A DNA stretch of 64,000 bases from Bradyrhizobium sp. CB1015 (GTDB lineage Bacteria; Pseudomonadota; Alphaproteobacteria; Rhizobiales; Xanthobacteraceae). This document shows positions 11,310 to 34,619 of this stretch, one piece after another. The stretch lies in contig NZ_CP104174.1 of NCBI RefSeq assembly GCF_025200925.1, positions 5,642,001 through 5,706,000 on the forward strand, given 5' to 3'. Both the position numbers and the translations under genes were made by a program. The stretch's first letter is position 1; every line of letters starts with the position of its first letter. Under the pieces are notes generated by a model that was given only the letters and a program-made list of their open reading frames with translations, searched no databases and was not told the DNA's origin.

Positions 11310-12737
11310 TCAGTACTCCCGGATGCTTTCGTCCAGGCCGCGAAGCAGGGGGTAGAGGAAATATGAAATCACCGTCCGCTGTCCGACCTTCATCTCGGCG
11401 GTAACCGCCATACCGGGCATCAACTGAACGCGTTCGGACGGCAGCCGAAGGTGCGTGTCCCGTAAATCGATCAGTACGCGGTAATAGGGAGCTGATGAAC
11501 GGCGCGCACCTTCGGCTTTCGCGTCCGGCGAAAATGAGTCCCGGCTGATGACGCCGACCTCGCCAGTCGCGGTGCCGTACTTCTGGAATGGAAATGCCTC
11601 GAACTTGACTCGTACGGTCTGCCCCACGGCCACCTGCCCGATATCCCTGCCCTCAACATTGACCTCCGCGCGGAGCGCCTCGTCCCGAGGGACCAGCACA
11701 AACAAGGTTTCAGCCTCGCGGACCACCGAACCCACCGTCCGATTGGCAATTTCGAGGACCACCGCATCGGCGGGTGCGTTCAGGACGATCAAATGCCGCC
11801 GGAGCTCCGCCTTCTTGAACTCCTCGGCAGTGCCGTTGCGTTTGGCCAAGGTTTCAACAAGTTCCTGATAGGCAGTGCGGCGAAACTCGGCGGCGAACAC
11901 CTTCTGGTCTGCACTGGCCTTGTCCAGCCGATGCATGTTGTCCGCGATGCTGCCGCGGACTCGCGCCAGGTTACTTTCAACCTCCAACCGCGCGTCCCGG
12001 GACAGCAGGAAGTTCAGTCTTGAACCGACCTCCTTGGCCATCAATGTATTGCGCATGGCTTCGATGGACTGCATGGTGTCCAGCCGCTGGGTCAGGACCA
12101 GCTCTTCGTTCTGAGCCGTCTTCAGATTGGCCTGCGCGGACGCAATCTGCGCATCGAAGTTCTGGATCTGGAGGTCGTAAGCGGCCTTCCTCTGCAGGAA
12201 TACTCTTCTCTGCAGAGCCTGGTCGGCATTCGCGCTCTCATCGACGACGTAATCGGCGCCGTCCAACTCGGCTCGAAGCCGGTCGATGGAGGCATCGAAA
12301 GCCGTCAAGCGGCCGCGCAGCTGAGCAAGATCGGCCTCGGAGAATGTCGGATCGAGTATCGCTAGGACGTCACCGCGGTTGACGGAGTCGCCGGCCCTCA
12401 CGCGGATTTCCCGAATGACCGACGTTTCCAACGGTTGCACGACCAGGTTTGGATGCATCGTGATCAGCTTACCTTGTGCCGTCACAATCATATCGACGTG
12501 CGACACACACGCAAAAATGATCGCGGCAACGATGAGTGCGGCAACACAATAGAGTGTGATCCGTCCCACACGCGGTGGGGTCATCTGCTCGATTTCGGCT
12601 GCGTCTGTCTGGAATTGCGCAACAACGCGAGACCCTGTTGTCGCAGGCCTCGAAATGCGGCGTCTCCCCCGCGAAACGGGCCGAGGCCGTGATCTGCCCG
12701 GGGCGCTCTCCACTCCGGTCTTGTCAGCCGCCGTCAT
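11310..12737 (-). CDS. HlyD-family periplasmic adaptor of a type I secretion system
   Basis: A 475-aa membrane-fusion protein bridging the ABC exporter and an outer-membrane TolC-like channel. One transmembrane helix (TLYCVAALIVAAIIFACVSH) follows a cytoplasmic, basic N-terminus. Next comes the lipoyl/barrel half-motif VQPLETSVIREIRVRAGDSV, a long coiled-coil (about residues 140-320), and the C-terminal beta-barrel ending with MPGMAVTAEMKVGQRTVISY, the classic HlyD ending. I chose 12737 because it makes an ATGA overlap with the ABC gene; a start 16 codons earlier is possible. No TolC-like outer-membrane gene is in the window. Confidence 0.92.
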   Translation of the reverse strand: MTAADKTGVESAPGRSRPRPVSRGRRRISRPATTGSRVVAQFQTDAAEIEQMTPPRVGRITLYCVAALIVAAIIFACVSHVDMIVTAQGKLITMHPNLVVQPLETSVIREIRVRAGDSVNRGDVLAILDPTFSEADLAQLRGRLTAFDASIDRLRAELDGADYVVDESANADQALQRRVFLQRKAAYDLQIQNFDAQIASAQANLKTAQNEELVLTQRLDTMQSIEAMRNTLMAKEVGSRLNFLLSRDARLEVESNLARVRGSIADNMHRLDKASADQKVFAAEFRRTAYQELVETLAKRNGTAEEFKKAELRRHLIVLNAPADAVVLEIANRTVGSVVREAETLFVLVPRDEALRAEVNVEGRDIGQVAVGQTVRVKFEAFPFQKYGTATGEVGVISRDSFSPDAKAEGARRSSAPYYRVLIDLRDTHLRLPSERVQLMPGMAVTAEMKVGQRTVISYFLYPLLRGLDESIREY

Positions 12738-15261: not shown

Positions 15262-18200
15262 CTATGCTGCGAGCTGCGGCCTGAAGAGGACGTCAACCGC
15301 ATAGCTTGTCGCGTTGAAGGTGTTGGTCGGGAACAGGCTTCCAGATCCGTACGCATAGACCCCGTTCCCGCCGCTCGAAGAGGACGACGGGGCTGTCAAC
15401 GGACCATTGGTCACTGAACTGGCGAACAGGTTGGGATCGGCCGAGTAATTGCCCGCAGTGTGGTAGGATGCGATATAGGTTGTCCCCGCCGCTATCGTCA
15501 CCGGCGTACCGAAATTGACCTGCTGCCAGCCGCTTGCTGTCTCGTTCGTGAAGGTAGCAGTAGCTAGCAGCGTGCCCGTGCTGGTCCATAGATCGGCAAC
15601 GTGTGTGCCCGTATTGTTCGGACCTTTGTAGAAGCGCAAGCCGATGATGTCGCCCGCGGTGGAAGCCTGGAACTTCATGCCAAGTTCCACCGAGTTCGGA
15701 TCATTGGCCGAGACGATGCTCGGCGTGGGATTGGAGCTGAACAGGCTCACGGTGCTAGCCGAGGGCGCGTTGATAGTGACGCTTGCTGTTGCGCTGGCGG
15801 TACCACCCCGGCCATCAGAGATGGCGTAGTTGAATGAGGCCGGTCCGGTATAGCCGCTGGCCGGACTGAACGTCACCGTGTTGTTCTGAGCGTTGAAACT
15901 GGCGGTGCCGTTGACGGCGCCACTGACACCCGTAATCGTTAGAGCGTCCCCGTTGGGATCGGTATCGTTTGCTAGAAGTGATGCTCCGGGAATGCTGAGC
16001 GCCACGTCTTTGGTCGCATTGAAGCCGCTGTCGTTACTGGCGATCGGCGGCTGGTTGGTTCCGGAATTGCTGAAGACGACATCCACCCAGTAGTTGGTAG
16101 CGTTGAACGTGCTCGTCGGAAACAGATTCCCCGTTCCATAGGTGTAGACACCATTGTTGTTCGCGGAGGCCGTAAGCGGCCCATTCGCACGAGCAGTGGT
16201 GAAGTAGCTGGGCGTATCGGCATAGTGGCCGTTGCTATGGAAGCTCGCGATATAGGTGGTGCCGGCCGTGATCGAGACCGGGCTACTGAAAGTCACGGTT
16301 TGCCAACCGCTGCTGGTCTCGTTGGTGAAGGTGGCGGTCGCCAGAAGCGTGCCTGTGCTGCTCCACAGTGATCCGGTGTGGGTGCCGATGTCGTTCGCAC
16401 TCTTGTAATACTTAATGCCGGTAATCGTGCCGGCGGCCGAGGACGTAAATCGTACCCCCAAATTAACCTGCGACGTGTCGGAGTCCGATAGCACCGAGGG
16501 CGTATCGGAGGTCGAGAATAGACTGACCGTGGAGGGAGCTGTGCTCACCGCGATATTGAACGTTTCGCTCGCGGAGAGGCTACCGAGATCGGTGGCGGTC
16601 GCCTTCACACTGACCGTGCCGACATCCGCAGACGTGGGTGTGCCGCTGAAGGTCCGGGTCGTCGCGTTGAATGTCAGCCATGTAGGAAGTGGCGAGCCAT
16701 CGGCCTTGGTTGCGGCGTAGGCGAGCGAATCGCCGGAATCCACATCGGTGAAGGTGCCGGCGGGCAGCGTCAGCGAGAAAGCCGAGCCGACGGTTGCCGT
16801 CTGGTTGCCGGTCTGGACCGCCAGCACAGGTGCGTCATTGGCGCCATGAATCGTGATGGTGACCGTCGACGATGATGTCGCACCAGCAGTATCGCGCATC
16901 GTGTAGTTGAAGGCATCTGTCAGCGTATTGGTCGAGAGCCGCAATGCCTGCACGGCGGGATCCGTTTCATTGACCGTGTAGGTGAACGCACCCGAGGCGC
17001 TGAGGACCAAGCTGCCGTGTGCGCCATTGAGTGACGATCCGAGCGTGCCAGACGTCGAACCAAAGCTGACTGCGGTCACGGTCTTGGTGTCGCCGGAATC
17101 CGGATCGGTATCATTCGTCAGCACGTTCCCAGTCCCGGGCGAGCCACCCGTGCCATTGTTAGTCCCACCCTTCTCCGTGGCATCGGCGGTATCGGCGACG
17201 GCTGTCGGCGGCCTGTTGGCAGACGTGCTCACCGCGATATTGAACGTTTCGCTCGCGGAGAGGCTACCGAGATCGGTGGCGGTCGCCTTCACACTGACCG
17301 TGCCGACATCCGCAGACGTGGGTGTGCCGCTGAAGGTCCGGGTCGTCGCGTTGAATGTCAGCCATGTAGGAAGTGGCGAGCCATCGGCCTTGGTTGCGGC
17401 GTAGGCGAGCGAATCGCCGGAATCCACATCGGTGAAGGTGCCGGCGGGCAGCGTCAGCGAGAAAGCCGAGCCGACGGTTGCCGTCTGGTTGCCGGTCTGG
17501 ACCGCCAGCACAGGTGCGTCATTGGCGCCATGAATCGTGATGGTGACCGTCGACGATGACGTCGCACCAGCAGTATCGCGCATCGTGTAGTTGAAGGCAT
17601 CTGTCAGCGTATTGGTCGAGAGCCGCAATGCCTGCACGGCGGGATCCGTTTCATTGACCGTGTAGGTGAACGCACCCGAGGCGCTGAGGACCAAGCTGCC
17701 GTGTGCGCCATTGAGTGACGATCCGAGCGTGCCAGACGTCGAACCAAAGCTGACTGCGGTCACGGTCTTGGTGTCGCCGGAATCCGGATCGGTATCATTC
17801 GTCAGCACGTTCCCAGTCCCGGGCGAGCCACCCGTGCCATTGTTAGTCCCACCCTTCTCCGTGGCATCGGCGGTATCGGCGACGGCTGTCGGCGGCCTGT
17901 TGGTACCATTGCTGGGAACAAACACCACGTCAGCCCAGTAGTTCGAAGAAGCAAACGTACTCGTCGGGAAGATACCAGCCGTGCTGGTACCACCGTAGGA
18001 ATAGACGCCGTTGCCGCCGGATGTGGCGGACGAAGGCGCCGTCAAATTCCCGCTCGTAATGGAATTGGCGAAGAAATTGTTCGTGGCGACATACGCACCA
18101 TTGGTGTGATACGAGGCGATATAGGTTGTATTGGCGCTGATCGTGACCGGGGTAGCCAGATTGACCGTTTGCCAGCCGCTCGCCGTCGTGTTGGTGAAGC

Positions 18201-20907
18201 TCGCGCTGGCAAGCTTAGTTCCGGTCGCGGTCCAGAGGTCGACGAGATCGGCCCCTCCGTCGCTCGGACTGCGATAGAATTTCAGCGCGGTGATTTGACC
18301 GGCCGTGGCGGAGGTAAACTTCACGCCGACTTCAAGCGGCGTGCCATCGTTCAAACTGGTCTGCGCCGGTACGTTGGAAGCCGTGAAAAGGCTTCCTGTA
18401 CTGCTCCCGCCTGTGACATTGACGCTGACCGTGGCAGGTGTCGCCTGCATATTGACACTGTCATCAGTCGCTCGCGCTTCGATGACTCGCGTACCAGAGC
18501 CCGAAGCAACCCACGTATAGCTCCAGTTTGTCGTGCCAGTCGCCGGGTGCCACGTCGTACCGCCATCGGTGGAAACTTCGATCCCGGCAACACGTCCGCC
18601 GGTGTCCGAGGCAGTGCCGGTAATCGTGACAGTCTGGCCCTGGCTGATGTTGGTCCCACCTGTCGGGGAGTTGATGACTGCTGTTGGCGCGGTATGGTCT
18701 GTGGACGCCTGGGCGCTCACAAGGCCCGCCTGCAACGTTTGTGGCATCACCCCCATGTCGGCGAGGAGATTCACCATCGATTGCTGCACGGCCGAGCTGA
18801 CTGGGGCGGTAAGGCCCTTATACGGGACGTATTGATCTGACAATCCCCACGGATACATGACCGTGCCGGCACCGAAAACCAAGGCACCGCTCTCGGGATC
18901 ACGGTAGAGCGTGAGATTGTGCGTGGCCGTCCCGGGGCCGGTGATCGAACCATTATCCAACAGCAACGAGTTGACATTTCTTGTCGTCGACGACATGTCG
19001 ATCAATCCGGCTGGCCGGAAGCCGTTGTCCAGATCACTGTCCCACTCGTAGCCAAGCAGGCGCGTCAGCGTTCCACCGTTGCCACTAGCAATGCTGGTGT
19101 TACGCCAAAAGCGCAGCTGCGACATGCTTGCCGGAACGGTGATGTTATCGAGCGTACCGGTGTCGTCGACGGTAAAAATCGTACCCGAGAGAGAGTTTTC
19201 CGGAGTGCCCGGCCCATAAACTGGATCACGAAACAGGCCCGCTCCTCCGTTAGCGGTGCCATTCGGGTCGAGTTGCGCGCCGCTCCAAATGTCCTTGTAC
19301 TCGACAATCGTTCGATTTGCCGTATGGCTCGCGTCGAAGCTCGCAGCAAGCTCGATGTCCCAATAGATTTCGTTGCCGCTCAAGAAGGCGAGGTCGACTC
19401 CCGCGTCGCGGGCAGCAGTGACATTGGCGAATTGCGATTGCGACCAATATTCGTCGTGGCCAGCGTCCATGTAGGCGCTGGCGTTCAGCAGCAATCCTGG
19501 ATTGGTTGAGGCGTCGATGCCGGAAATGTAACTGACGTCGTAGCCGTTCCGCTCCAACCAATAGATCGCTGCGTATTCCTCGCCAAATAAGAAATCTGTC
19601 GGCTGAGCAAGGTTGGAGTTGACATTCATAGCGATTGGACGGTTGTAGCTGACAGCATACGCACGATCGCTATTGGTTCCGCTGGGACCTTGATAAAGAT
19701 TATAGCCGCCCCACGGATTGTACGCCTCCCAAGTCGTGTCGCTGGTTTGGTACAAGATGCCCGTTGAAGTGCCGTCGTTCCGGACGATGAAGGGAATCAT
19801 GTTCTGGAAGTTGCCGGTATCTGACGTCAGCTTTGCGAAGTAGACGCCCGACACGGCCGTGCTTGGGATCGTCCATGAATCCGTCACGGACCAATTGCCG
19901 GCGTCGACAGTCCTGGTTGCGGAATTGAAGATCGGGTTTGGCTGATTGACCGTTCCAGTGTGATGCATGCTGGTGATCAGGCGTGCACCATTGCCACCAT
20001 AGTAACCCAGCCGGTAGATATCGAGCGTATAGCCGTTCACACTGGAATCGGTATCGATCTTGAAGGAAACAGTTTGTCCAGCATTGGTGCTGATCTGCGT
20101 CGTGAAGCCTTCAATCTGCGAGTCGCCCTCGTTGTTGATCGAACCGTGGATCGCCCACGTACTCTTCGGCGTACCCGGTAGTTGATTCTCCGTGACGATC
20201 TTGTTGCTCGCGTCGCTGAAGGTCGCCGTCGCAGTCTGGCCGTCGGAAGTGGCGGTGAGCTGCAATGTCGCACCTGTAGAGCGGCCGTCCGCTGGCACCT
20301 GCCATTGCGCGACAACCCTGCCATTTGCCATTCCGTCCAGATCGCCACTGCCGCCGTCCTTCACCGTGAACGGCGCATAAACATCAGCAATGCCGTTAGC
20401 GCCTGGTGCGCTCAACAGGTCCGCAATCCTGAATGTGACCGACGCTCCCGACCTGATGCCGGTTGCAGTGAACGTTGCCGTGCTGCCGGGCGCGTAGTCT
20501 CCGTTATCCGTAGCTACGGACATCGATCCTGTTCGGAGAGAATTGAAGGCCGAGGCGCCATGTGCGCCGACGGGCTGGACCATCTCGGCGGCATTGTCTC
20601 CGGGACGCCAGCCGGAAACGAAATTGTTCGAGTCCCAGCCGATATTCGAGCTCTGCGTCCTAAGATCGCCCGCCGTTTGGTCGGGGGAGGCAACTAACGG
20701 CACACCTTGCCATCGGAATGATGCCGTTCCGCCGAAAAAGCCCTTCCATGAAGCCAGCTTCGGGCTGGCCAAATCAGAATCCAGGAGCCTTCTCAATCCA
20801 GTACCCTGCGGTCCGATTCCGCCGCCGTAGAGACTGCCCTCCGATCGCCCTGGAAGAAGCCGCTGCGCGATTCGTACGCTCGCCAAAATGTCTGGACTGT
20901 TCCACAT
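15262..20907 (-). CDS. Giant modular protein: DMF-amidase-like domain, three DUF4082-type and Ig/cadherin-like modules; likely T1SS cargo
   Basis: An 1881-aa protein with no signal peptide, encoded first in the type I secretion operon and so its probable cargo. Visible modules in order: an N-terminal region of about 290 residues; a domain like the large subunit of N,N-dimethylformamidase (about 290-730; DTTWEAYNPWGGYNLYQG near 385 and AGHDEYWSQSQF near 480); an Ig-like module (735-830); a DUF4082-like sandwich (about 835-1000); two almost identical 227-residue units (1002-1228, 1230-1456), each with a VCBS/cadherin-like part and a putative-Ig part; a second DUF4082; a cadherin-like module (1616-1714); and a third DUF4082 at the C-terminus. 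Classical RTX nonapeptides are absent. It may be a surface adhesin or polymer-modifying enzyme; activity is unproven. Confidence 0.85.
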   Translation of the reverse strand: MWNSPDILASVRIAQRLLPGRSEGSLYGGGIGPQGTGLRRLLDSDLASPKLASWKGFFGGTASFRWQGVPLVASPDQTAGDLRTQSSNIGWDSNNFVSGWRPGDNAAEMVQPVGAHGASAFNSLRTGSMSVATDNGDYAPGSTATFTATGIRSGASVTFRIADLLSAPGANGIADVYAPFTVKDGGSGDLDGMANGRVVAQWQVPADGRSTGATLQLTATSDGQTATATFSDASNKIVTENQLPGTPKSTWAIHGSINNEGDSQIEGFTTQISTNAGQTVSFKIDTDSSVNGYTLDIYRLGYYGGNGARLITSMHHTGTVNQPNPIFNSATRTVDAGNWSVTDSWTIPSTAVSGVYFAKLTSDTGNFQNMIPFIVRNDGTSTGILYQTSDTTWEAYNPWGGYNLYQGPSGTNSDRAYAVSYNRPIAMNVNSNLAQPTDFLFGEEYAAIYWLERNGYDVSYISGIDASTNPGLLLNASAYMDAGHDEYWSQSQFANVTAARDAGVDLAFLSGNEIYWDIELAASFDASHTANRTIVEYKDIWSGAQLDPNGTANGGAGLFRDPVYGPGTPENSLSGTIFTVDDTGTLDNITVPASMSQLRFWRNTSIASGNGGTLTRLLGYEWDSDLDNGFRPAGLIDMSSTTRNVNSLLLDNGSITGPGTATHNLTLYRDPESGALVFGAGTVMYPWGLSDQYVPYKGLTAPVSSAVQQSMVNLLADMGVMPQTLQAGLVSAQASTDHTAPTAVINSPTGGTNISQGQTVTITGTASDTGGRVAGIEVSTDGGTTWHPATGTTNWSYTWVASGSGTRVIEARATDDSVNMQATPATVSVNVTGGSSTGSLFTASNVPAQTSLNDGTPLEVGVKFTSATAGQITALKFYRSPSDGGADLVDLWTATGTKLASASFTNTTASGWQTVNLATPVTISANTTYIASYHTNGAYVATNNFFANSITSGNLTAPSSATSGGNGVYSYGGTSTAGIFPTSTFASSNYWADVVFVPSNGTNRPPTAVADTADATEKGGTNNGTGGSPGTGNVLTNDTDPDSGDTKTVTAVSFGSTSGTLGSSLNGAHGSLVLSASGAFTYTVNETDPAVQALRLSTNTLTDAFNYTMRDTAGATSSSTVTITIHGANDAPVLAVQTGNQTATVGSAFSLTLPAGTFTDVDSGDSLAYAATKADGSPLPTWLTFNATTRTFSGTPTSADVGTVSVKATATDLGSLSASETFNIAVSTSANRPPTAVADTADATEKGGTNNGTGGSPGTGNVLTNDTDPDSGDTKTVTAVSFGSTSGTLGSSLNGAHGSLVLSASGAFTYTVNETDPAVQALRLSTNTLTDAFNYTMRDTAGATSSSTVTITIHGANDAPVLAVQTGNQTATVGSAFSLTLPAGTFTDVDSGDSLAYAATKADGSPLPTWLTFNATTRTFSGTPTSADVGTVSVKATATDLGSLSASETFNIAVSTAPSTVSLFSTSDTPSVLSDSDTSQVNLGVRFTSSAAGTITGIKYYKSANDIGTHTGSLWSSTGTLLATATFTNETSSGWQTVTFSSPVSITAGTTYIASFHSNGHYADTPSYFTTARANGPLTASANNNGVYTYGTGNLFPTSTFNATNYWVDVVFSNSGTNQPPIASNDSGFNATKDVALSIPGASLLANDTDPNGDALTITGVSGAVNGTASFNAQNNTVTFSPASGYTGPASFNYAISDGRGGTASATASVTINAPSASTVSLFSSNPTPSIVSANDPNSVELGMKFQASTAGDIIGLRFYKGPNNTGTHVADLWTSTGTLLATATFTNETASGWQQVNFGTPVTIAAGTTYIASYHTAGNYSADPNLFASSVTNGPLTAPSSSSSGGNGVYAYGSGSLFPTNTFNATSYAVDVLFRPQLAA
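16541..17903. repeat. Near-perfect tandem duplication of 679 bp inside the giant gene
   Basis: Bases 16541-17219 recur at 17225-17903 (period 684 bp, 228 codons, in frame). By eye I find one difference: T at 16876 versus C at 17560. Each copy encodes one cadherin/VCBS-like plus one putative-Ig module. The near identity at DNA level, including silent positions, points to a very recent duplication or ongoing gene conversion. Confidence 0.92.
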
Positions 20908-22468: not shown

Positions 22469-24802
22469 ATGCTTCAGAGCAATCTTCTACAGACCGACAG
22501 CACACGCCTCCCATTCGGGGCGCCGGCGCAATCCGATCAAATGGAGAGTGGGGGGATCGGCGATCTCATCAATTTCGGACTAGCCTTTCTCCGCCGCCGA
22601 TACCTGATGATTATTGTTACCACGGTGCTCGCAACGGCGATCAGTCTGCTATACCTGAGAGTGACGCCTCCAACCTATACCGCACAGGTTCAGGTGCTGC
22701 TGGGCAATCCCCGGGCGCAGTTCGTCCAGCAACAATCGATCCTCGCCGAGCAGGCCTTCGACGGCACTCAAATTGAGACGCAGCTTCAACTCCTGAAATC
22801 AAGGGCCACCGCCGCTGCCGTGATCAATCAGCTGAAGCTAACCGATGATCCGGAGTTCAATGGATCCGGGGCATCTCTGCTGTCACTGTGGCAGCGGGTC
22901 CGAACATTGCTCTCGTCGGCCCCCAAAGAACGGCAATCCGACGCGCACGGCGGGCAATTAGAAAGCGTCATAGACACATTTCTGGATCGGCTCTCGGCAA
23001 GCCGCGTCGGATACAGCAACGTGATTGAGATCAGCTTCAATTCCAGTAGCGCCTCCCGAGCGGCGGAGATCGTCAATGCCGTGGCCAATGCCTATGTCAC
23101 AGACCAACTGGAACAGAAATTTGAGGCCAATCGCAGCGCGACCAGCTGGTTGCGGGAGAGGCTGCACGATCTTGACGAGCAAGCGCTGACTGCACAACGT
23201 GCGGTCGACGCCTACAAAGCCCAGAACAATATTGTTTCCACGGATGGTAAACCTATCGGTGATCAGCAAATCACCGACCTTAACGCCCGATTGGCAGCCG
23301 CCCGCGCGCATACTTCCGAAGCTAGGGCCAAGTTAACTCGCTATGAGAATCTCCTTGGCTCTGATCCAGCGAAACTCACGTCGATTGACGGTCTGGATGC
23401 TGTCGGACCTGACGCGATGAATAGTTCGATCATCACTGCCCTGCGCCAGCAATATCTCGAGATGTCGAGGCGGGAGGCGGAATTGTCGGCCCGCGTCGGT
23501 CGCGACCATCTGGCGGTCGTCAACGTGCGGAATCGTATGCGCGAGTTTCGCGTCTCAATATTCGAGGAAGTCAAGAGACTGGCCGGAATCAGCCAAAGCG
23601 AATTCGAACTGGCCAAACAGCGCCAGCAGGAAATCGAGAAGCAATTGGCTCAGGCCGTGTCGCAGTCACGGTCGACGAATTCCGCGGAATTGACCATCAA
23701 GGACCTGGAAAGCCGCGCGAAAGGCTTACGAAGTCTCTACGAGACTTTCCTGCAGCGTTACGTGGGCTCGGCACAGCAGGAGACATTTCCCATCTCAGAG
23801 ACTCGGGTGATCTTTCCCGCGTCGCCACCCCCGAGCAAAAGCAAGCCCAAGACAATTCGGGTGCTGGGATTCGGCCTAATCGGAGGCTTGGCGCTTGGCA
23901 TAGCCTTGGCATTTCTTAGAGACGTCATGGACCGCGTCTTTCGCACCTCGTCACAGCTCGAAGCCGCGTTAGAGCTGCCGTGCCTGTCCCTTGTGCCGCT
24001 GCTGCAGCTCCCAAGCCCGACGAAATCAACAAATCGCGCTGCGCAAACGGTCGAGGATCTGCGACAACGGACGATCTCGAACGCGCCAGCGGTTCACCAG
24101 ACAGTTGTTGGGATGCCGCTATCTCGGTTCACCGAAGCAATCCGCTCAATTAAGCTCGCCATCGACCACAATCCGGCAAAAACTTCCAATCAGGTCATCG
24201 GCATCACCTCGGCTCTGCCGAATGAAGGCAAGACGACGATTGCTGCGTCTCTTGCTCAACTGGTCGGGCACAGCGGGAAGAGAGCGATCATTGTCGATTG
24301 CGATCTCAGGAATCCGTCGCTCTCCGGCACTCTTACGCCCAAAGCGGTTGATGGGATCATAGAAGTCGCAAACGGCAACTGCTCGCTCGAGGAAACGATC
24401 TGGCGAGATCCCAAGACCAATCTTGCCTTCCTACCAGCGGTGCGGCGTAGGCCCCTGATCCACACAAGTGAGATTCTTTCCGCCGAGACCATAAGTACTT
24501 TGTTCGATCATTTGCGCGCCAACTACGATTACGTGATCGTGGATCTACCGCCATTGATCCCCTTGGTCGATGTACGAGCGTGCGCGCCGCTGATTGACTG
24601 CTTCGTTCTCGTTGTCGAGTGGGGACGGACTAAGATTGATGTGGTTCAGCACGCTCTACACACGGCGCCGGACATTCATGAGTCGTTGATAGGTGCAGTC
24701 CTTAACAAGACCGATATCAAGGCGATGGCTCGATACGATGCATACCGGAGCGACTACTATGATGATAGCCATTATATCCGTTACGGCTTTTCCGGTTCGT
24801 GA
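22469..24802 (+). CDS. Wzc/GumC-like polysaccharide co-polymerase with BY-kinase domain
   Basis: A 777-aa inner-membrane protein that controls chain length and export of polysaccharide. A Wzz-type domain starts with a transmembrane helix (YLMIIVTTVLATAISLLYL, about residues 45-65), followed by a long periplasmic coiled coil (about 230-470) and a second helix (about 465-490, VLGFGLIGGLALGIALAF). The cytoplasmic bacterial tyrosine kinase has Walker A LPNEGKTTIAAS (Lys588), Walker A' IIVDCDLRNPS and Walker B-like VIVDLPPLIPL. The last 25 residues hold six tyrosines, the autophosphorylation cluster of BY-kinases. No cognate phosphatase gene is in the window. It is followed after 40 nt by the polymerase candidate. 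Confidence 0.92.
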   Translation: MLQSNLLQTDSTRLPFGAPAQSDQMESGGIGDLINFGLAFLRRRYLMIIVTTVLATAISLLYLRVTPPTYTAQVQVLLGNPRAQFVQQQSILAEQAFDGTQIETQLQLLKSRATAAAVINQLKLTDDPEFNGSGASLLSLWQRVRTLLSSAPKERQSDAHGGQLESVIDTFLDRLSASRVGYSNVIEISFNSSSASRAAEIVNAVANAYVTDQLEQKFEANRSATSWLRERLHDLDEQALTAQRAVDAYKAQNNIVSTDGKPIGDQQITDLNARLAAARAHTSEARAKLTRYENLLGSDPAKLTSIDGLDAVGPDAMNSSIITALRQQYLEMSRREAELSARVGRDHLAVVNVRNRMREFRVSIFEEVKRLAGISQSEFELAKQRQQEIEKQLAQAVSQSRSTNSAELTIKDLESRAKGLRSLYETFLQRYVGSAQQETFPISETRVIFPASPPPSKSKPKTIRVLGFGLIGGLALGIALAFLRDVMDRVFRTSSQLEAALELPCLSLVPLLQLPSPTKSTNRAAQTVEDLRQRTISNAPAVHQTVVGMPLSRFTEAIRSIKLAIDHNPAKTSNQVIGITSALPNEGKTTIAASLAQLVGHSGKRAIIVDCDLRNPSLSGTLTPKAVDGIIEVANGNCSLEETIWRDPKTNLAFLPAVRRRPLIHTSEILSAETISTLFDHLRANYDYVIVDLPPLIPLVDVRACAPLIDCFVLVVEWGRTKIDVVQHALHTAPDIHESLIGAVLNKTDIKAMARYDAYRSDYYDDSHYIRYGFSGS

Positions 24803-24842
24803 GATTACCTAGGCCACCCTTGGCCAGCTCGCTGGTTCTTCG

Positions 24843-26855
24843 GTGGCCGCCGCCGCCAGAGATGATGACTCCATGATTGTACGGCCCGCAATGCTGAGTC
24901 TGCTGTTGGCCCCCTCCTCATTAGCCATGGCCGCAACTCTGCAGAGGGCGGCGGTGGTATCGGTTTTGCTAGCGACAGCAACGCTGACGGCAGCCTTTTT
25001 CCTGCCGGCCATCAATATCAGCCGGCTTGGCAGGCTTTTGCGACCTTTTCTCATGATGAGCCTCGTGGCGCCGGCGCTCTGGATGGTTTTGCAGCTAGTT
25101 CCGATCCCGGTGCGCGGGTTAGGGCACTCCATTTGGACAATCGCCTCGGCCGCTTTGAATGAACCGCTCGCCGAACGGTTCACCGTTGATCTTTGCGCAA
25201 CTATGCTCTCGTTCGCACAATACAATGTCATTCTGAGCACTGCCCTGATCACCGCGGTCCTCACTGTGGAAAAGCAACGTGCGGCGCAGGTCCTTTACGG
25301 CCTTGCGGGGATTACGACGCTCAGTTCCGGACTAACGATTTGGATCACATTTAACCCCTCGCATGATTCCTTACCTAGCGAGCATACCTCGGTTATCACG
25401 ACAGCATCGATCGCAGCGACAATCGGGGTCCTCGTCTCTACCGCGGTGGCCATCCGGGCGTTCGATCAACTGCAGCGTCGCGGGCCGCAACCACGCTCCC
25501 AGGCCGGTCCGACGATCAGACTTTTGCTGGCCATTCTATCGCTGATCGTCTCCATGGCGGCAGTTTCAATCGGTACCGATTTCACCACCATGGTCGCTGT
25601 CCTACTCGGTGACGGGACGTTGCTGGCCGTCGTCGCTATTCGTAGATGGTTCTTCGGGCCCTGGGGCACAGCGGGTGTTCTCGCAACCATAGCAATCGTT
25701 TTCGTCGCGAGCTTCACCATTATTCCGATCAATCGAAATGCCGACCTGACGATCGCGCTGGCGACGCAGAGTCAGACCGCAACCGAACGTATGCTGCAAG
25801 ACGTTGGGCCGATTGGCTCCGGGGCAGGAACGTTCAATGCGCTGCTGCCGATCTATCGAGAGATTGGCACCACCGCGACGCCGGAACGAACGACGGCCGC
25901 CGCTACCATCGCCATCGAGATGGGACGGGCGTTCCTTTGCGGGCTGCTGGTCGTAACATTGGCGGGTGCCTGCACCCTGTTCAAACGTTCCCTATCAAGA
26001 GGGTACGATTACGTATACGCAGCCCTAGGCGCCGGCACCTCAGTCGCGCTACCAATCTTGGCGTTCGCGGAAGATGGTGTCCTCAATTTTGGCGTATCGC
26101 TATTGATCGCGGTCCTCTATGGCTTGGCCTTCGGTCAAAGCCTCTCCTCGCAACAGCTTTTGGAAAACGCGAGTGCCCGACAATCGACTGGTTGGCGAGC
26201 CCATTTGGCCACAGCTCACAAGAGCTGGGCGCGCCTAGCACTGGCTTCTGTCGGTATAGTACTGATCGCCCAAGCAGCCTGGATGATCTCACAGTGGTGG
26301 TATTCCGGCGACAGCATCTCAACCATGCCAGCTACCATTTCAAGCGGAGCTGCGACCGACGAAGCGTGGAACGCGGCCTTAATGGAGCCCGCGCGCAAAG
26401 AGGCGTGGACGACGACGCAATCTTCAGCCGCAGCGCAAACTAAGTCGGATGGCGCTGAGGCTTTTGGCCGCCCATCGGCGATGAGCGCTTTCGCAAACGC
26501 GCTACATTATTCGCCACTTCGCGGTGATAACTGGCTCATGCTTGCGGCAATTTCAAAGCAGCAAAATTCAGCCGGATACAACTCAGCGGCCTTGCTCAAG
26601 ATGTCATATTATACTTCACCAAACGATCTAGATTTAATTCCATTAAGGGTGTCAGTTGCTCTTAGCACGGATACTGTGACTAAGGAGCCCGAGCTTCGTG
26701 ATCTGGTTAGGCGCGATCTCAAGGTTGCAATAGCGCGTCGGCCTGCTTTCAAGTCAGTTATCATAGCTGTGTACCGATCCGCATCACCCGACAGCAAGTC
26801 CCTCATCGAGGGTCTGATCTCCGAGTATGATCCGAGCTACCTTCGAGGTCCTTAG
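24843..26855 (+). CDS. Wzy/O-antigen-ligase-like membrane protein with C-terminal soluble tail
   Basis: A 670-aa protein. Roughly residues 10-490 are a dozen hydrophobic helices separated by short loops; the remaining about 180 residues are soluble and helical (FANALHYSPLRGDNWLMLAA resembles a tetratricopeptide-like helix pair). The loop with GPIGSGAGTFNALLPIYREI matches the conserved periplasmic loop of the O-antigen ligase/polymerase superfamily. Its position directly after wzc supports a role in polymerising the flipped repeat unit. The longest frame begins with GTG at 24843 without a clear ribosome-binding site. ATG codons at 24873 or 24888 are alternatives. A ligase role is the main alternative function. 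Confidence 0.8.
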   Translation: MAAAARDDDSMIVRPAMLSLLLAPSSLAMAATLQRAAVVSVLLATATLTAAFFLPAINISRLGRLLRPFLMMSLVAPALWMVLQLVPIPVRGLGHSIWTIASAALNEPLAERFTVDLCATMLSFAQYNVILSTALITAVLTVEKQRAAQVLYGLAGITTLSSGLTIWITFNPSHDSLPSEHTSVITTASIAATIGVLVSTAVAIRAFDQLQRRGPQPRSQAGPTIRLLLAILSLIVSMAAVSIGTDFTTMVAVLLGDGTLLAVVAIRRWFFGPWGTAGVLATIAIVFVASFTIIPINRNADLTIALATQSQTATERMLQDVGPIGSGAGTFNALLPIYREIGTTATPERTTAAATIAIEMGRAFLCGLLVVTLAGACTLFKRSLSRGYDYVYAALGAGTSVALPILAFAEDGVLNFGVSLLIAVLYGLAFGQSLSSQQLLENASARQSTGWRAHLATAHKSWARLALASVGIVLIAQAAWMISQWWYSGDSISTMPATISSGAATDEAWNAALMEPARKEAWTTTQSSAAAQTKSDGAEAFGRPSAMSAFANALHYSPLRGDNWLMLAAISKQQNSAGYNSAALLKMSYYTSPNDLDLIPLRVSVALSTDTVTKEPELRDLVRRDLKVAIARRPAFKSVIIAVYRSASPDSKSLIEGLISEYDPSYLRGP

Positions 26856-27075
26856 TTTGTCCCCGGAGAATAGACGGCTTCGCTGCGCCTGCGAATAGAT
26901 CCGCAACGCGCCACGCCCGCGCCTATTCGAGACATCGATCTCGCGTTGCGAGTGTCCAAAAGCGAAGCATGAGAATTCAAATTTCATAGTTTATCTTAGA
27001 TGATTTTTTTCTTGATAAAATTAATAGATCTATAATAAATTAAATTATACCCGAAATATCGAACCACCTCTCGCA
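26856..27075 (+). promoter_or_regulatory. AT-rich promoter region of the sugar transferase gene
   Basis: From about 26985 to 27055 the sequence is strongly AT-rich. TATAAT at 27031-27036 is a candidate -10 element, but no -35 box is well spaced from it. The stretch is the kind of DNA that H-NS-like proteins bind; two such proteins are encoded just downstream. Confidence 0.4.
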
Positions 27076-28548
27076 ATGAATTTTGTCAACCGAGATGTCA
27101 GAAATCGTGGCAGCCCCGTGGCTAGCCTCGGGCTAGATTTGTCGGGGACTGCGGAGCGAAAATGGCCGGTCCGATACGAGTGGATTGAATTGGTCGCGCT
27201 TTGCGCGGACGCGGCAACCATCCTGTTCGCAGGTATTTTTTCCACATTGCTCTACCAGCTCCATAACGGCGGAGCCGCCGGCGATGGGGGTAAGGTCTTG
27301 GGCTCCGCTATCCTTGCGACTGTAATCTTCGTTTCGGTATGGAAGGCAAACGGTCTGTATAGAGTGACTGAACTCCTGGCGCTGCGAAGCCAAATCCGCC
27401 GCGTGTGCATGGCTTGGGGATGGTTACTTCTTCTCGCCGGCATGATGGACACATTCAATTTTTGCCCTGACTTGTCCCAAGGGGCTGGCCCGCTCTTTGC
27501 CATACTCGGTTTGCTCGCGTTGATCGCCGAGCGGTATACTACGAGGGCATTGCTGCTCAGGTGCGTCACCGGAAGAAAGTTCGCCAGCACGAACATCGTT
27601 CTGATCAGCGATCAGCCGCTGTCCAAAAATGCAGGCCTGCCCGAAGCCCTGGCTATGCACGGTTATTCCGTCAAGCGACGGTTCAGCCTACCCCCAATTG
27701 GCTTCGGTCCTGCCGGTCGGAGGCGGCTGGGTTCCCGGGTGATCGACTACGTTCGCAACACTCGGCTCGACCACGTGGTGGTCGAAGCCAGCCCGGAACG
27801 ATGGCCCGAGCTCCGGGCCTTTGTTGCCGAGTTGCGGGTATTGCCGTTCCCGATCATGTTCGTGCCGGTCGGCACAACAGCCGAATTGCTTCGACATCCT
27901 ACGCGCAGCCTTGGAAGTGCCGTTTGCGTAGAATTGCAGCGCGGAGCCCTTACCCCGTTCGAGTGCGCGACTAAACGAATCGTCGATATTCTTGGCGCGG
28001 GCCTCGCTTTGGCAATAGCCGCACCGCTGCTTGCGCTTGCCGCAATCGCGATCAAGCTGGATTCTCCCGGCCCCGTGTTGTTCCGACAAAAACGCTGTGG
28101 CTTCAATGGTCGGACATTCTTGATCCGCAAATTTCGGACCATGCATGTGCTCGAGGATGGTCCCGTGATCCTTCAGGCCACCCCCGTCGACCAACGCATC
28201 ACCCGCGTGGGCAGGTGGCTACGTCGGACAAGTTTCGATGAATTGCCGCAGCTGCTGAATGTGCTCGAGGGCAGCATGTCCTTGGTGGGGCCGCGCCCGC
28301 ACGCCTTGGCCCACGACGGACAGTTTGACAAGCTCGTGCGAAACTACGCCTTTCGTCGCAGGGTCAGGCCAGGATTGACCGGATGGGCCCAGATCCACGG
28401 CTGCCGCGGCGCAACACCCACAGCATCCATGATCGAAGCACGTGTACAATACGACCTCTGGTATATCGATAATTGGAGTCTTCGGCTGGATCTCGCAATC
28501 CTGCTGCAAACTCCGCTGGAGGTCTTGCGAGGCCGCAACGCCTACTAG
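27076..28548 (+). CDS. Polyprenyl-phosphate sugar-1-phosphate transferase (WcaJ/ExoY superfamily)
   Basis: A 490-aa membrane enzyme that starts polysaccharide synthesis by moving a hexose-1-phosphate from UDP-sugar to undecaprenyl phosphate. The N-terminal part has about four membrane helices, then a CoA-binding-like domain. The catalytic C-terminal third has a membrane-inserted helix ([20 protein letters not shown]), the conserved [38 protein letters not shown] and [12 protein letters not shown]. Length equals the usual 460-490 aa for the WcaJ type. The sugar (glucose or galactose) cannot be assigned. It faces the first H-NS-like gene, 36 nt away and convergent. Confidence 0.93.
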
Positions 28549-28584: not shown

Positions 28585-28947
28585 TCACGCGCGCTGCCGA
28601 AGCTTCGGAGTCGCTGCCGCGATGCGAAACTCCTCGATCCGACGGCCGGATTTCATGGCCGCAACCAACCACCGCGGCCGCTTGCCACGTCCTGACCAGG
28701 TTTCGGAAGTCTGAGGATTGCGGTACTTGGGCAGCACGCGCGGATATTTGCGCCTCTGCTTGCCGGTCGGGGAGACGCCCGCTGCTTCGGCCAACACAGC
28801 CATCCCCCCGCCGAGAACCGCCAGGCGTTTCTCCAGTTCCTGCTTCTCCGCCTTGATCCGATCCGACAAGATGCCGCTAATCTCCTCGTGAAGCGACCAG
28901 AGATCATCGAGGGACATCTCTTCGAGCTCGAGCTTCTTAGTCGACAT
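28585..28947 (-). CDS. H-NS histone-family DNA-binding protein (HvrA-like)
   Basis: A 120-aa nucleoid protein. The N-terminal half (1-50) is a helical, coiled-coil oligomerisation region (LEEMSLDDLWSLHEEISGIL). The C-terminal half holds RRKYPRVLPKYRNP and the DNA-contact motif WSGRGKRPRWL (84-94), the alphaproteobacterial form of the H-NS W-x-GxGRxP core. Such proteins bind the minor groove of AT-rich DNA and silence acquired genes. It is a paralogue of the gene at 29.6 kb. Its AT-rich surroundings fit autoregulation and control of the polysaccharide genes (inference). Confidence 0.93.
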   Translation of the reverse strand: MSTKKLELEEMSLDDLWSLHEEISGILSDRIKAEKQELEKRLAVLGGGMAVLAEAAGVSPTGKQRRKYPRVLPKYRNPQTSETWSGRGKRPRWLVAAMKSGRRIEEFRIAAATPKLRQRA

Positions 28948-29643
28948 GCCGGCACCCTGTGGTTGCGCTCATTTAATATCATCCCGACTTGGTAATCAAC
29001 ACCCAGGTTGGGTCAGTGTAGAAAAACGTGGAACTGGACGGGCGAGTTTCGGTGCCCCACATAGCTGCGTCGCTGGTTCCAATCAAGATCAAAAAGCATT
29101 TATCCGCTGAATTTAACGGCGGCTGTAACAACGCGCCATACAACCGAGGCTCTGTTCAAGCGAGCAGTGTGTGCGCAAGAGCCCCTGCTCCGCTGCGCCC
29201 TCGACGCATATGACCGGCGCGCTAGACTGCTTTTCTCGGTTGGCAATCCTTCTAAAATCCGGCCGTCCGCCCGCCGCAATGGCGCTTATGATTGCGATTT
29301 CTACCAGCGCCAATTGTCACAGGTGGTTTCGTAACTCCGATGGATTGTTATCGGCCGCGGCCGAAGGAGGATGGACCGACTGATCGCCACTTGAAGGCGG
29401 ACCAGTGGACTGGACCACTGATAATCTCCGTTGCTTCTCCTCGTGCCTTCAGCAAGATTTCCTCGCCCTTGGAATAAATGGATGAAAATAATCCTCGCTA
29501 TATATATTAAATAATTATATCATTTATTTATTGTCGCGCGATTTTTGAAGTCCAAGCCTTGCTCCCTGTCCATTGTCGGGCGCGTGATTCGACGCAGCTG
29601 GGGACTGGTAGCAAGGTGCCGGTCGAACGGTGCCGAGAATACT
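28948..29643. other. Gap between the two H-NS-like genes
   Basis: About 700 bp with no convincing gene; only short frames without domains. The two ends are AT-rich, especially 29495-29535, and probably carry the divergent promoters of the two paralogous genes. The middle is of normal GC content. I see no hairpin, tRNA or repeat array. Confidence 0.5.
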
Positions 29644-30027
29644 ATGCGAAGGCAGGATCTCGAAGCCATGGATTTTGAAGAACTTTGGCTCCTCCACGAG
29701 GAGCTGACAAAGATTCTGGCTGAAAAGATCACAGCCGAAAAGCGGGAATTGGAAAAGCGCCTGGCGCAACTCAATCAGACGGATCAATTAGGCGCGACGG
29801 AGGGTGGGGCGACAGCGGCTGGCTCAAGTCAGGCCCCTCGGCGTAAATACCCGAAGGTCGTTCCGAAATACTTCAACCCCCTCAAGCCCACAGAGACCTG
29901 GTCCGGGCGTGGCAAACAGCCACGCTGGTTGGTCGCAGCGCTCCAATCGGGGCACACGCTGGAGGAGTTCAGGATCCCCGAGAACGGCGAAGCGCCGAGC
30001 CGGAATGCTGGAGGTCACGAGCATTGA
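29644..30027 (+). CDS. H-NS histone-family DNA-binding protein, second paralogue
   Basis: A 127-aa protein with the same plan as the gene at 28.6-28.9 kb: helical N-terminus (MDFEELWLLHEELTKILAEK), a Gly/Thr-rich linker (50-63), and RRKYPKVVPKYFNP followed by WSGRGKQPRWL (86-96). The start at 29644 was chosen to match the paralogue's N-terminus; an earlier in-frame ATG at 29545 would add 33 unrelated residues. The two proteins could form mixed oligomers. Which targets each silences cannot be read from the sequence. Confidence 0.92.
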   Translation: MRRQDLEAMDFEELWLLHEELTKILAEKITAEKRELEKRLAQLNQTDQLGATEGGATAAGSSQAPRRKYPKVVPKYFNPLKPTETWSGRGKQPRWLVAALQSGHTLEEFRIPENGEAPSRNAGGHEH

Positions 30028-30146: not shown

Positions 30147-31223
30147 TTAGACCTTCCCTGCGCGCTCGGCGAAGGCCGTCTTCAACAGGAACTGCACGGT
30201 GCCCACTCTCGGCAAGGACCACAGTCCACGTGGATGCGCGGCGGCTTGCCGGGCGCCGCGTGCCGCTTTCCGGTAATTTCCGAGATCCAGCGCCATCAAT
30301 GCGAGGAAGGGAACGCGCGTAGCCGGAAACCGTGCTTGCATCGACTGTCGCATGAACTGCAGGCGAGGGATCAGTCGGGAGCGTAACGCGCGCGGAATAT
30401 CGACGCCAAGCAGCTCGGCAAGAGCAATCAGCTGGGTTTCAACCGCGTTCTTCATCAATTCGCCCGAGACAAGAGCGGCAAGCTTCTCCCAATCGAGAGG
30501 TTCGGCGGAATCGTTTAAATCGCGTAATTCTACAAGATGCCGCAGGTCGAGGTCGCCGAGCCAGTACCCATAGTCTTGAAATTGATCATGGATGATCAAG
30601 GTGAGCGCCCGGTAGATTGGCTTGGGAATATGCACTCTCCCCGATCTCAACATTGCCGCGACGCAGTGGCTCAGAGCAAGTCCGGGGCCTCGGTAGAGAC
30701 ACATAGGGCCAGGAGCGGCCTGTTGCAGATCGATGGCTCCGACGTCGCCCGGCCGGTTCATGTCGACACACCATCGCTGGCTTCCCGGCAGCGCCTGATC
30801 ATGAATTTCATAGCCAATTGCCCGTAGAGCGGCGACTCCGCGTTCGGTTTCGTTCGGCTGAACCATGATATCAAGATCACACATCAGCCGAACGCCTCGT
30901 CGCTCGGGCGGCGTCGTGCCCAGCGTCGCTGCTCCCTTGATCAATATCGGCGTAACTCCCTCGCCATTCATCGCAACGACGGCCTCCTCGAGTTGAGCGA
31001 CGAGGCGATCATTTCGCAGCACGTTTCGGCGGTGGACATGGCGAACATATGTGCAGACGTCCTCCGGCAGCATCCGTTCGTATTTGTCCACAAAGTCGAT
31101 GAGAGCCGGCGTCGTCAGGGTCTGATTTGCGAGCCCGATGACGGACGTCCACTCTACGTCGGCGGGCGGCATGCCCCGCAAGCAATTGCAGAGGCTCGTC
31201 AGCGCGCCGCTATGCCTTGCCAT
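30147..31223 (-). CDS. Nucleotidyltransferase-like protein (NTP_transf_5 family) of the PqqD-HprK cassette
   Basis: A 358-aa protein of the family annotated as uncharacterised nucleotidyltransferase. ILIKGAATLGTT (Lys96) precedes RGVRLMCDLDIMVQP, which carries the acidic pair Asp116/Asp118 expected to hold metal. The rest is mostly helical and includes DYGYWLGDLDLRHLVELRDL. Related genes stand beside HPr-kinase-like enzymes in some lasso-peptide clusters (for example PadeN of paeninodin) and in HprK-related kinase A loci. It overlaps the kinase gene by 14 nt, so they are one operon. Proposed role: adding a nucleotidyl or sugar-phosphate group to a target first phosphorylated by the kinase; not demonstrated. 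Confidence 0.85.
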   Translation of the reverse strand: MARHSGALTSLCNCLRGMPPADVEWTSVIGLANQTLTTPALIDFVDKYERMLPEDVCTYVRHVHRRNVLRNDRLVAQLEEAVVAMNGEGVTPILIKGAATLGTTPPERRGVRLMCDLDIMVQPNETERGVAALRAIGYEIHDQALPGSQRWCVDMNRPGDVGAIDLQQAAPGPMCLYRGPGLALSHCVAAMLRSGRVHIPKPIYRALTLIIHDQFQDYGYWLGDLDLRHLVELRDLNDSAEPLDWEKLAALVSGELMKNAVETQLIALAELLGVDIPRALRSRLIPRLQFMRQSMQARFPATRVPFLALMALDLGNYRKAARGARQAAAHPRGLWSLPRVGTVQFLLKTAFAERAGKV

Positions 31224-32439
31224 GGCACAATTCCATCAGCAGGCGCCGCGCCTCTCCGGCCTCGGAGTAGGTTAGCTGAAGCGATTGCGCGCGCGCGACC
31301 ATCCGCTTTAAAGCAAAAAAGCCCGCCTGCGACAGTCTACCATCGCCCGCAAATGCGTTCTCGATGAGCCGCTTCATCGATTCCAAACGATCTAATACGG
31401 TTAGTTCGGCCGGACCGCCCGTGACCCGGTTCAAGAAGATGATCCAGCCTGCGGAGAAGCACTGGGCCTGCGCATCCGGAATGGGTACGTACCGCACCCG
31501 AACGCCGTCGGAGCGGCGATGCGTCGCGTCGTAGCGGTCGCCATGTAGTCGCGAGAGCAAGCCCCACGATCCTTCCTTGAGGGTGAGCGCAAACGGGACT
31601 CCGCAGATCGTTCCGTCGCCGCCAACCAGCGCGACGTCATCGCCGGCGTACCGAAATCCGGCGTCAACCAGCTGCAGCGTGAGGGTCGACTTCCCAGCTC
31701 CCGGATGGCCGCATAACAGCAGGCCCATGCCCTCATTCACGAGGGAAGCGGCATGAAGGGAGAACACCCAACGATTGCTTCGAATAAGCCGCTCGGTGAC
31801 GTGAGCTTTGATCGTAGGGGCCAGCGCCTCGACTTCGCATCTGGAAACGCTGGAATCCTCTGCGCGCAAGAACACTTGCTCATCCAGCATCATTGCCTCG
31901 ATCGCGATGTCGCCGTCGCCGCTGGCGCCCTGGTCCGAAACACAGAACGGCGAAAGCAGCCGTCGCATGAGGTCCCGATTTGCCGCCCGGACGCTTATTC
32001 TGTGTCCACCGAGTCTTGCCGAGAAGGCCCCATCGTTCGGCATCTGCCAATCGACCTTGAGCATTGCCCGATCGATCCAGGTATTTACGGCCTCTCGCGT
32101 GAACTGGCGTGCCGTGTGCTCGTCGATGCCCTGCGCTTCAAGCCCCCGATAAATGTCTCCTATAGAGGCGCCTTCCCCTAACTTACACCAGATGAATGCC
32201 CCTACTCGGTCGAGTTCAAAGATCTTCTGCCCGGCTTCGCTGAAGATCATTGATCGCCCATCAAGCAGTGCGAATACTGCATCCGGAGCCGGTCTCAACA
32301 CGATCTCTGCCCACGATCTTTCCAGCACGGCTTCCACCAATACGAATACAAATATGAACCCTTCCGCCTCGCCTTTGCTGGCAAGAGCCTCCGGGATGGT
32401 CGCGATACCCGACGAGCGGATGGCGGCCGCCTGCGACAT
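31210..32439 (-). CDS. PqqD-like / HPr-kinase-like fusion protein
   Basis: A 409-aa fusion. Residues about 45-130 are a PqqD-like peptide-binding domain (VFALLDGRSMIFSEAGQKIF; WCKLGEGASIGDIYRGLEAQ), a winged-helix fold that in RiPP pathways binds a leader peptide. Residues about 225-330 resemble the HPr kinase P-loop domain: LLCGHPGAGKSTLTLQLVD (Gly244-Ser251) and the Walker-B-like AGDDVALVGGDG (Asp267/Asp268). In related systems PqqD-like and HprK-like parts are separate genes. No HPr (PtsH) gene is nearby, so a peptide or protein substrate bound by the PqqD part is more likely. An 81-aa protein gene lies 84 nt upstream. Confidence 0.85.
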   Translation of the reverse strand: MSQAAAIRSSGIATIPEALASKGEAEGFIFVFVLVEAVLERSWAEIVLRPAPDAVFALLDGRSMIFSEAGQKIFELDRVGAFIWCKLGEGASIGDIYRGLEAQGIDEHTARQFTREAVNTWIDRAMLKVDWQMPNDGAFSARLGGHRISVRAANRDLMRRLLSPFCVSDQGASGDGDIAIEAMMLDEQVFLRAEDSSVSRCEVEALAPTIKAHVTERLIRSNRWVFSLHAASLVNEGMGLLLCGHPGAGKSTLTLQLVDAGFRYAGDDVALVGGDGTICGVPFALTLKEGSWGLLSRLHGDRYDATHRRSDGVRVRYVPIPDAQAQCFSAGWIIFLNRVTGGPAELTVLDRLESMKRLIENAFAGDGRLSQAGFFALKRMVARAQSLQLTYSEAGEARRLLMELCHGKA

Positions 32440-32523
32440 TCATTAGCCCGGCCCGTGGCGCTGCGGTTTCCGCCGAACACACGCCACCCCGTCCGGCTCG
32501 TTTCGACATGTCCATCCGGCCGG

Positions 32524-32769
32524 TTATGCCGCGAGCTGACCGTCCTTGTCCCCGTCTTGAGGAGAAACGCTCAACCCCTGCTTTCCAAGGAGGCTCGCTC
32601 TGGCGATCGACCGATGAGCATCCAATAGGTACCGATAAGCTTCGCGATCGGCACTCCGTTCTCTCAGAATGCGCTCCTTCTCGCCAATGCTCACCAATTC
32701 CGCGCGCATCTCAGCCAACTGCAGCGTCTCCGAGGTGAGGTTGTGCTCACTAAGAATTAATTCCCACAT
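32524..32769 (-). CDS. 81-aa orphan protein heading the PqqD-HprK cassette; candidate substrate
   Basis: A small acidic, helical protein (residues 1-65 predicted helical: LQLAEMRAELVSIGEKERIL) with a flexible polar tail, SVSPQDGDKDGQLAA. The ribosome-binding site is strong: GGAGGAG just upstream of the ATG. The gene precedes the PqqD-HprK fusion by 84 nt on the same strand. I recognise no family. Tail serines (residues 67, 69) are possible phosphorylation sites if it is the kinase's substrate. It could equally be a structural partner. It is too long and has no leader/core pattern typical of a lasso precursor. Confidence 0.65.
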   Translation of the reverse strand: MWELILSEHNLTSETLQLAEMRAELVSIGEKERILRERSADREAYRYLLDAHRSIARASLLGKQGLSVSPQDGDKDGQLAA

Positions 32770-34534: not shown

Positions 34535-34619
34535 TGGTGCGCTCGGAGGGACTCGAACCCCCACGGTGTTACCCACTGCCACCTCAAGGCAGCGCGTCTA
34601 CCAGTTCCGCCACGAGCGC
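34535..34619 (-). tRNA. tRNA-Leu (anticodon GAG)
   Basis: Read on the minus strand, this 85-nt stretch folds as a class II tRNA. The acceptor stem GCGCTCG (34613-34619) pairs with CGAGCGC (34539-34545), followed by discriminator A and an encoded CCA. The D-arm GGCGGAACTGGTAGACGC and T-arm GGGGGTTCGAGTCCCTC are normal. The anticodon stem CTGCC/GGCAG encloses loop TTGAGGT, so the anticodon is GAG. The variable arm is long, as in leucine tRNAs. Its 3' end faces the polysaccharide region. Confidence 0.95.

Follow-up and report, generated by a model that had tools for sequence, protein, structure and literature searches.

A cassette of Bradyrhizobium encoding an RRE–kinase fusion and a nucleotidyltransferase, and a dispersed family of small tagged proteins as its candidate substrates

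Results

We analyzed a 64-kb stretch of DNA (G000:C1:5642001-5706000, hereafter the window) within the 8.4 Mb genome of a Bradyrhizobium soil bacterium; the stretch carries a cassette of three minus-strand open reading frames (ORFs) encoding an 81-residue protein (32524-32769), a fusion of a lasso-type, PqqD-like RRE domain with an HprK-like kinase (31210-32439) and a 358-residue NTP_transf_5 nucleotidyltransferase (30147-31223). Read directly from the sequence, the last two genes overlap by 14 nucleotides (31210-31223), and the small gene lies directly 5′ of the fusion, just as an earlier note on this DNA had described. Sequence comparisons make it likely, in our judgment, that the cassette encodes a modification complex that works in trans, its targets being small precursors of a dispersed family: the two enzymes probably recognize scattered small proteins by a 37-residue N-terminal tag and add a phosphate, perhaps followed by a sugar or nucleotide. 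The evidence consists of the architecture of the cassette, the predicted folds of the RRE and kinase domains, the coupled presence and absence of enzymes and precursors, and the adjacency of precursor and kinase genes across the phylum.

A conserved tag accompanies the fusion kinase

In diverged loci of the genus, small proteins with a common core and mostly Gly-rich tails are encoded beside the fusion. The core, A1, reads DRRxFLKxCGRFAAVTPPAxTLLLSTSLTSxAIAxS, and a profile of 37 columns built from 20 chosen sequences showed a mean column identity of 82%. To define the carriers of the enzyme we searched 195 genomes of the genus with the fusion and obtained matches in 54 at E≤0.001, of which 12 weak ones (E 8e-15 or worse; G026, G029, G053, G055, G126, G142, G162, G167, G175, G204, G212, G234) and two broken ones (G040, G056) were not counted as positive; the full-length fusion is thus present in 40 genomes. 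The core family was found in 43 genomes, comprising all 40 with the full-length fusion and three of the 155 without it. Among these three, the copy in G112 has a stop, that in G227 is open but degenerate, and that in G050 looks intact. The core is absent from the two genomes with broken fusions, which were counted as negative (best E 0.51 in G040 and 0.17 in G056). The genus includes natural cases in which the loss or decay of the enzymes goes along with that of the substrates. None of the 12 weak-match genomes appears among the listed carriers of the precursor family. In one of them, G053, a distant nucleotidyltransferase adjoins the kinase match (L017), which suggests that some of these genomes may hold distant, core-less systems.

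The core proteins are mostly dispersed, with up to ten per genome among the matches listed. Particularly, the genome of the window has four copies among the matches listed, all of them outside the window, some 38-40 kb before it and 198-208 kb after it. The tails of 53 distinct precursors fell into several types (16 NNGxGN, 19 long Gly/Ser-rich, seven WLExxL, six His-rich and five other), and a Ser stands two residues past the AxA in all 53. At five of 19 loci (L125, L135, L142, L143, L224), a dispersed precursor lies close to an ORF that we read as a response regulator, in partly conserved microsynteny.

Related precursors adjoin related kinases in the order and the phylum

At the level of the order, the core was found in 12 of 297 genomes, and eight of the ten genomes with the fusion at E≤1e-45 carry it. 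The other four core genomes have a more distant kinase, which adjoins the core in G415, G450 and G454. An order-wide kinase search matched 198 of the 297 genomes, and we took these matches to be mostly true HprK because most of them were short. Around 17 order-level kinase loci, small ORFs of the type [KR]R..L...G.[AYF].xPx... adjoin the kinase clearly in nine and doubtfully in three, and none was found in the flank of the remaining five; with a profile built largely from order-level ORFs, 12 of the 17 wider stretches contained one to seven such ORFs. In place of the VTPPA of the core, more distant members have segments such as YMTPA or YVAPA. These segments are instances of the YxxPx[hydrophobic] motif, which is bound by the RREs of lasso peptides and of the Linear Polyphosphorylated Peptides (LPP) of Bacillota (PMC12710340; PMC13381572).

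Moreover, a kinase profile matched 90 of 398 genomes of the phylum at E≤1e-12. An adjacent protein with such an N-terminus was present in 16 of the 22 loci read first. We then trained a precursor profile on 13 of the first-read loci and applied it to 20 further, held-out loci: 13 matched at E≤3e-10, compared with none of the 18 control stretches, which came from 18 of these genomes. The precursor is followed by a gap of about 300 bases and then the kinase, with a nucleotidyltransferase behind it in many loci; L248 has its precursor on the opposite strand. All six gap ORFs tested belong to TIGR04353 above its cut-off, and two kinases from loci with gap ORFs reached 347 and 396 bits against TIGR04352 (cut-off 200). 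With 99.5 and 76.4 bits, the kinases of L225 and L207 fall short of this cut-off like the fusion of the window, so the phylum set is in part HPr-rel-A by the test of NCBIfam and in part a divergent branch. The larger precursors, of 160-214 residues, mostly share an SCWxSF-like C-terminus (L228, L229, L231, L233, L234, L236, L237, L239, L240, L243, L244), and this similarity suggests a shared mature domain.

We considered that the dispersed proteins could be ordinary exports of the twin-arginine translocation (Tat) pathway, with which the kinase co-occurs through ecology or linkage, for example as one exopolysaccharide regulon. The DRRxFLK of the tag resembles a twin-arginine motif, and the tag ends in AxA. 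When the Tat model TIGR01409 (TAT_signal_seq, cut-off 16.7) was run against 21 candidate precursors of all kinds, only a small ORF of L183 matched, at 13.8 bits; the tag itself is only mildly hydrophobic. However, the core shows strong conservation, four core-type proteins had no match in NCBIfam at E≤1, and the core is missing from 152 of the 155 genomes without a full-length fusion. In other lineages, moreover, a related precursor directly adjoins the PqqD and kinase genes. On this evidence we regard plain Tat export as unlikely.

The 81-residue protein is probably not the main substrate

The earlier note had proposed that the cassette is a stand-alone system that phosphorylates and then nucleotidylates the 81-residue protein, which would be bound by the PqqD-like domain and modified in cis. 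The ORF has no family match, yet it is a conserved gene: the family numbers 61 proteins with the window's own copy counted, the organism is Bradyrhizobium wherever a source name specifies one, and differences among 16 pairs accumulate at the third codon position (222, against 144 and 107 at the other two). We detected the gene in 34 of the 195 genomes of the genus, 31 with the full-length fusion and three without intact enzymes. Where both are present, it lies directly upstream of the fusion on the same strand without exception (31 of 31 genomes, gap of 70-248 nucleotides), a point in favor of the note's proposal; in nine of the 40 fusion genomes the gene was not detected. Conversely, the gene is intact in G040, G056 and G112, where only broken enzymes or their remnants are left. 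The 13 invariant columns of a 28-sequence alignment include no Ser and no Thr, and the same alignment contains no YxxP-like motif. Some genomes have the enzymes without this protein and others keep it although the enzymes have decayed, so it is hardly the main substrate, and modification of the 81-residue protein in cis appears improbable to us. What survives of the proposal, by inference, is a stand-alone system that phosphorylates peptides or proteins, includes a nucleotidyltransferase and a domain for leader binding, and has no lasso cyclase nearby. The core family would be the better substrate candidate, as it tracks the enzymes more closely and related proteins adjoin related kinases elsewhere; the 81-residue protein looks like a lineage-specific extra.

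The enzymes of the cassette

Counted from the first ATG, the fusion has 409 residues, although this start is uncertain: many homologs have only 372-379 residues, so the true start may be an in-frame TTG or GTG at codon 34, 35 or 38. Its matches to TIGR04352 (HprK_rel_A, 73.5 bits, curated cut-off 200), Pfam Hpr_kinase_C (25.9 bits, cut-off 33.3) and Pfam PqqD (21.0 bits, just below the cut-off of 23.4) are each weak, and the domains come in the expected order. The structure model has a pLDDT (predicted local distance difference test) score of 91, its RRE half lies 1.4 Å from TfuB1, and the Walker A motif and an Asp pair of the kinase half are invariant. Together, the model and the profile searches settle the predicted architecture of an RRE domain joined to an HprK-like kinase, as the earlier note had recognized. 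Its assignment of the third gene also proved right, for the nucleotidyltransferase matched NTP_transf_5 (PF14907) at 74.4 bits, above the cut-off of 31.2; a homolog is present in 14 of 24 compared stretches, of which 22 were fetched around kinases.

Two further readings of these enzymes have very little in their favor. That the kinase phosphorylates HPr or NPr of the phosphotransferase system, like a true HprK, would agree with its HprK-like sequence and fold, but it carries a fused RRE, scores only 27.8 bits against the HPr kinase/phosphorylase model TIGR00679 (cut-off 240) and is found at full length in just 40 of the 195 genomes. A degenerate lasso peptide cluster, for which a lasso-type RRE, a kinase and a nucleotidyltransferase would be familiar tailoring parts (PMC8498205), is no easier to believe, since a scan by motif alone for the cyclase signature S[GA]G[LIVM]DS, confined to the compared stretches and not extended to the rest of the genome, found none in the window, in line with what the earlier note had reported, or in 22 of the other 23 stretches, and besides the kinase and the nucleotidyltransferase no neighbor family occurs in more than four of the 24.

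Discussion

A proposed mechanism and the points against it

The scheme that we propose for modification in trans, in which the RRE holds the tag while first the kinase and then the nucleotidyltransferase act, is drawn by analogy with LppK and with the enzymes of paeninodin and pseudomycoidin. The RRE half of the fusion would bind the N-terminal tag common to the precursors; within this tag, V-T-P-P-A-[MVIL] lines up with YxxPx[hydrophobic], the motif of the lasso and LPP leaders, and may be recognized in the same way. The HprK-like half would then phosphorylate a Ser, most likely that at AxA+2, and the NTP_transf_5 protein would add a sugar or nucleotide to the phosphate, as in pseudomycoidin. 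More speculatively, the twin-Arg, mildly hydrophobic and AxA-ended tag could direct export and cleavage, which would free the variable Gly-rich, His-rich or amphipathic tails; alternatively, the exporter could be a type I secretion pair found in the window, in L137 and in L138. Taken to its full extent, the proposal is one of trans tagging of exported small proteins: a single RRE-kinase and its nucleotidyltransferase would read the 37-residue tag of as many as ten scattered proteins in a genome and attach a phospho-sugar or a nucleotide to a Ser of fixed position next to the export cleavage site, so that otherwise unrelated tails reach or anchor in the surface polysaccharide, with related versions acting on adjacent substrates throughout Pseudomonadota. 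This fuller picture is tentative, and we would sooner expect some part of it to fail than all of it to hold.

Several observations weigh against modification of the dispersed family in trans. G050 has an intact precursor and no kinase, and the degenerate copy in G227 has no stop codon. In the order, the core is missing from G433 and G068 despite strong fusion matches, although the match in G068 has an internal stop and the genome is 84% complete. No precursor was recognized in six of the 22 first-read phylum loci or in seven of the 20 held-out ones, and among the latter the profile matched only four of ten loci in genera unseen in training, compared with nine of ten in the others. The nucleotidyltransferase match lies further off in L249, L253 and L254, so the gene order is not uniform; in L031 (Bradyrhizobium agreste, 9220-9803) this enzyme is without its middle part and the fusion is full length, and our structure model of the nucleotidyltransferase was too poor for use. 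The core has V, I or F where the published motif has Tyr, and some of the more distant precursors have no Ser at AxA+2. Finally, the tag resembles a Tat signal and might serve as nothing else, and transporters recur near some cassettes.

Genomic context

The cassette lies inside a polysaccharide locus, and to this extent the link with the polysaccharide that the earlier note had suggested stands, though it is positional only. Plus-strand exopolysaccharide genes at 22469-28548 encode a Wzz/BY-kinase-like protein, a 670-residue protein and a WcaJ-type sugar transferase; we list them as context without counting them as proven members of the system. Between them and the cassette, and likewise context, are two H-NS-type genes (28585-28947, minus strand; 29545-30027, plus strand). 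The order of all three cassette genes and the presence of the exopolysaccharide and H-NS-type neighbors are conserved in all 11 named Bradyrhizobium loci. The H-NS-type pair might silence or regulate the cassette. The 670-residue protein (24843-26855, plus strand), encoded between the Wzz/BY-kinase and WcaJ-type genes, has no Pfam or NCBIfam match and is more variable than its neighbors among the 11 loci, at about 41-53% identity.

On the other side of the cassette is a gene that we read as lipB, a homolog of which was within the fetched flank in L032 only, and between the two a tRNA-Leu(gag) gene (34535-34619, minus strand) marks a possible island boundary. Further away, a minus-strand gene at 15262-20907 encodes an 1881-residue protein with DMFA2_C, DUF4082, Ig/cadherin and VCBS-type repeats; it adjoins a type I secretion ATPase with a C39-like N-terminus (12734-14938, minus strand) and an HlyD-type adaptor (11310-12785, minus strand), with which it probably forms a secreted adhesin system. 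ORFs related to the transporter pair are also present in L137 and L138, and ORFs related to the 1881-residue protein in L137 and L213. ABC-ATPase ORFs occur in four of the 24 compared stretches, including the HlyB-type ATPase of the window some 15 kb from the nucleotidyltransferase.

Comparison with known systems

LPP were described in Bacillota (Popov et al., 2026; PMC13381572), where LppK phosphorylates Ser3 of the LPP core. Both systems combine an RRE, an HprK-like kinase and an NTP transferase; both have short precursors with a conserved N-terminus, a variable C-terminus and a recognition motif of the YxxP type; and LPP loci lie in or near capsular polysaccharide genes, comparable to the exopolysaccharide setting found here. 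They differ in that RRE and kinase form a single fused chain in the Bradyrhizobium cassette and that the leader has the form RRxFL...VxxPx instead of YxxPxVLxHQxIxFETxxS (PMC13381572). Moreover, most of the precursors found in Bradyrhizobium are dispersed and would be acted on in trans. LPP clusters include an SpI-like leader peptidase and an MsbA-like transporter (PMC13381572), whereas beside our cassette no dedicated peptidase was recognized and no exporter is common to more than four of the 24 stretches, though no profile search aimed at either was made. The terms Proteobacteria and Pseudomonadota do not occur in the main text of PMC13381572, and no report on Pseudomonadota substrates was among the papers listed in our searches of one open-access library. 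The present work links a system found across Pseudomonadota to peptides reported in Bacillota in 2026.

In the lasso peptides paeninodin and pseudomycoidin, an HprK homolog phosphorylates a Ser and a nucleotidyltransferase extends the phosphate with hexose (PMC8498205). The cassette shares this pair of enzyme types but has no cyclase motif nearby, and its candidate precursors are small proteins that bear a signal-like tag.

HPr-rel-A (TIGR04352/TIGR04353) comprises a PqqD-like chaperone and the HprK-related kinase A, with an NTP_transf_5-like gene in many loci. In the window, structure and profile comparisons place the PqqD-family partner in the same chain as the kinase, as a fused RRE-like domain, and the fusion stays well below the TIGR04352 cut-off. 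NCBIfam names the chaperone and the kinase of HPr-rel-A, yet neither its models nor those of Pfam matched any of our 21 candidate substrates at cut-off. The tagged proteins offer a specific family of possible substrates that can be put to the test, together with a putative recognition motif and, in the core family, a putative site of phosphorylation. In exosortase/PEP-CTERM sorting, too, one enzyme set serves many dispersed substrates that share a short tag; here, by contrast, the tag sits at the N-terminus, and a kinase and a nucleotidyltransferase take the place of a protease.
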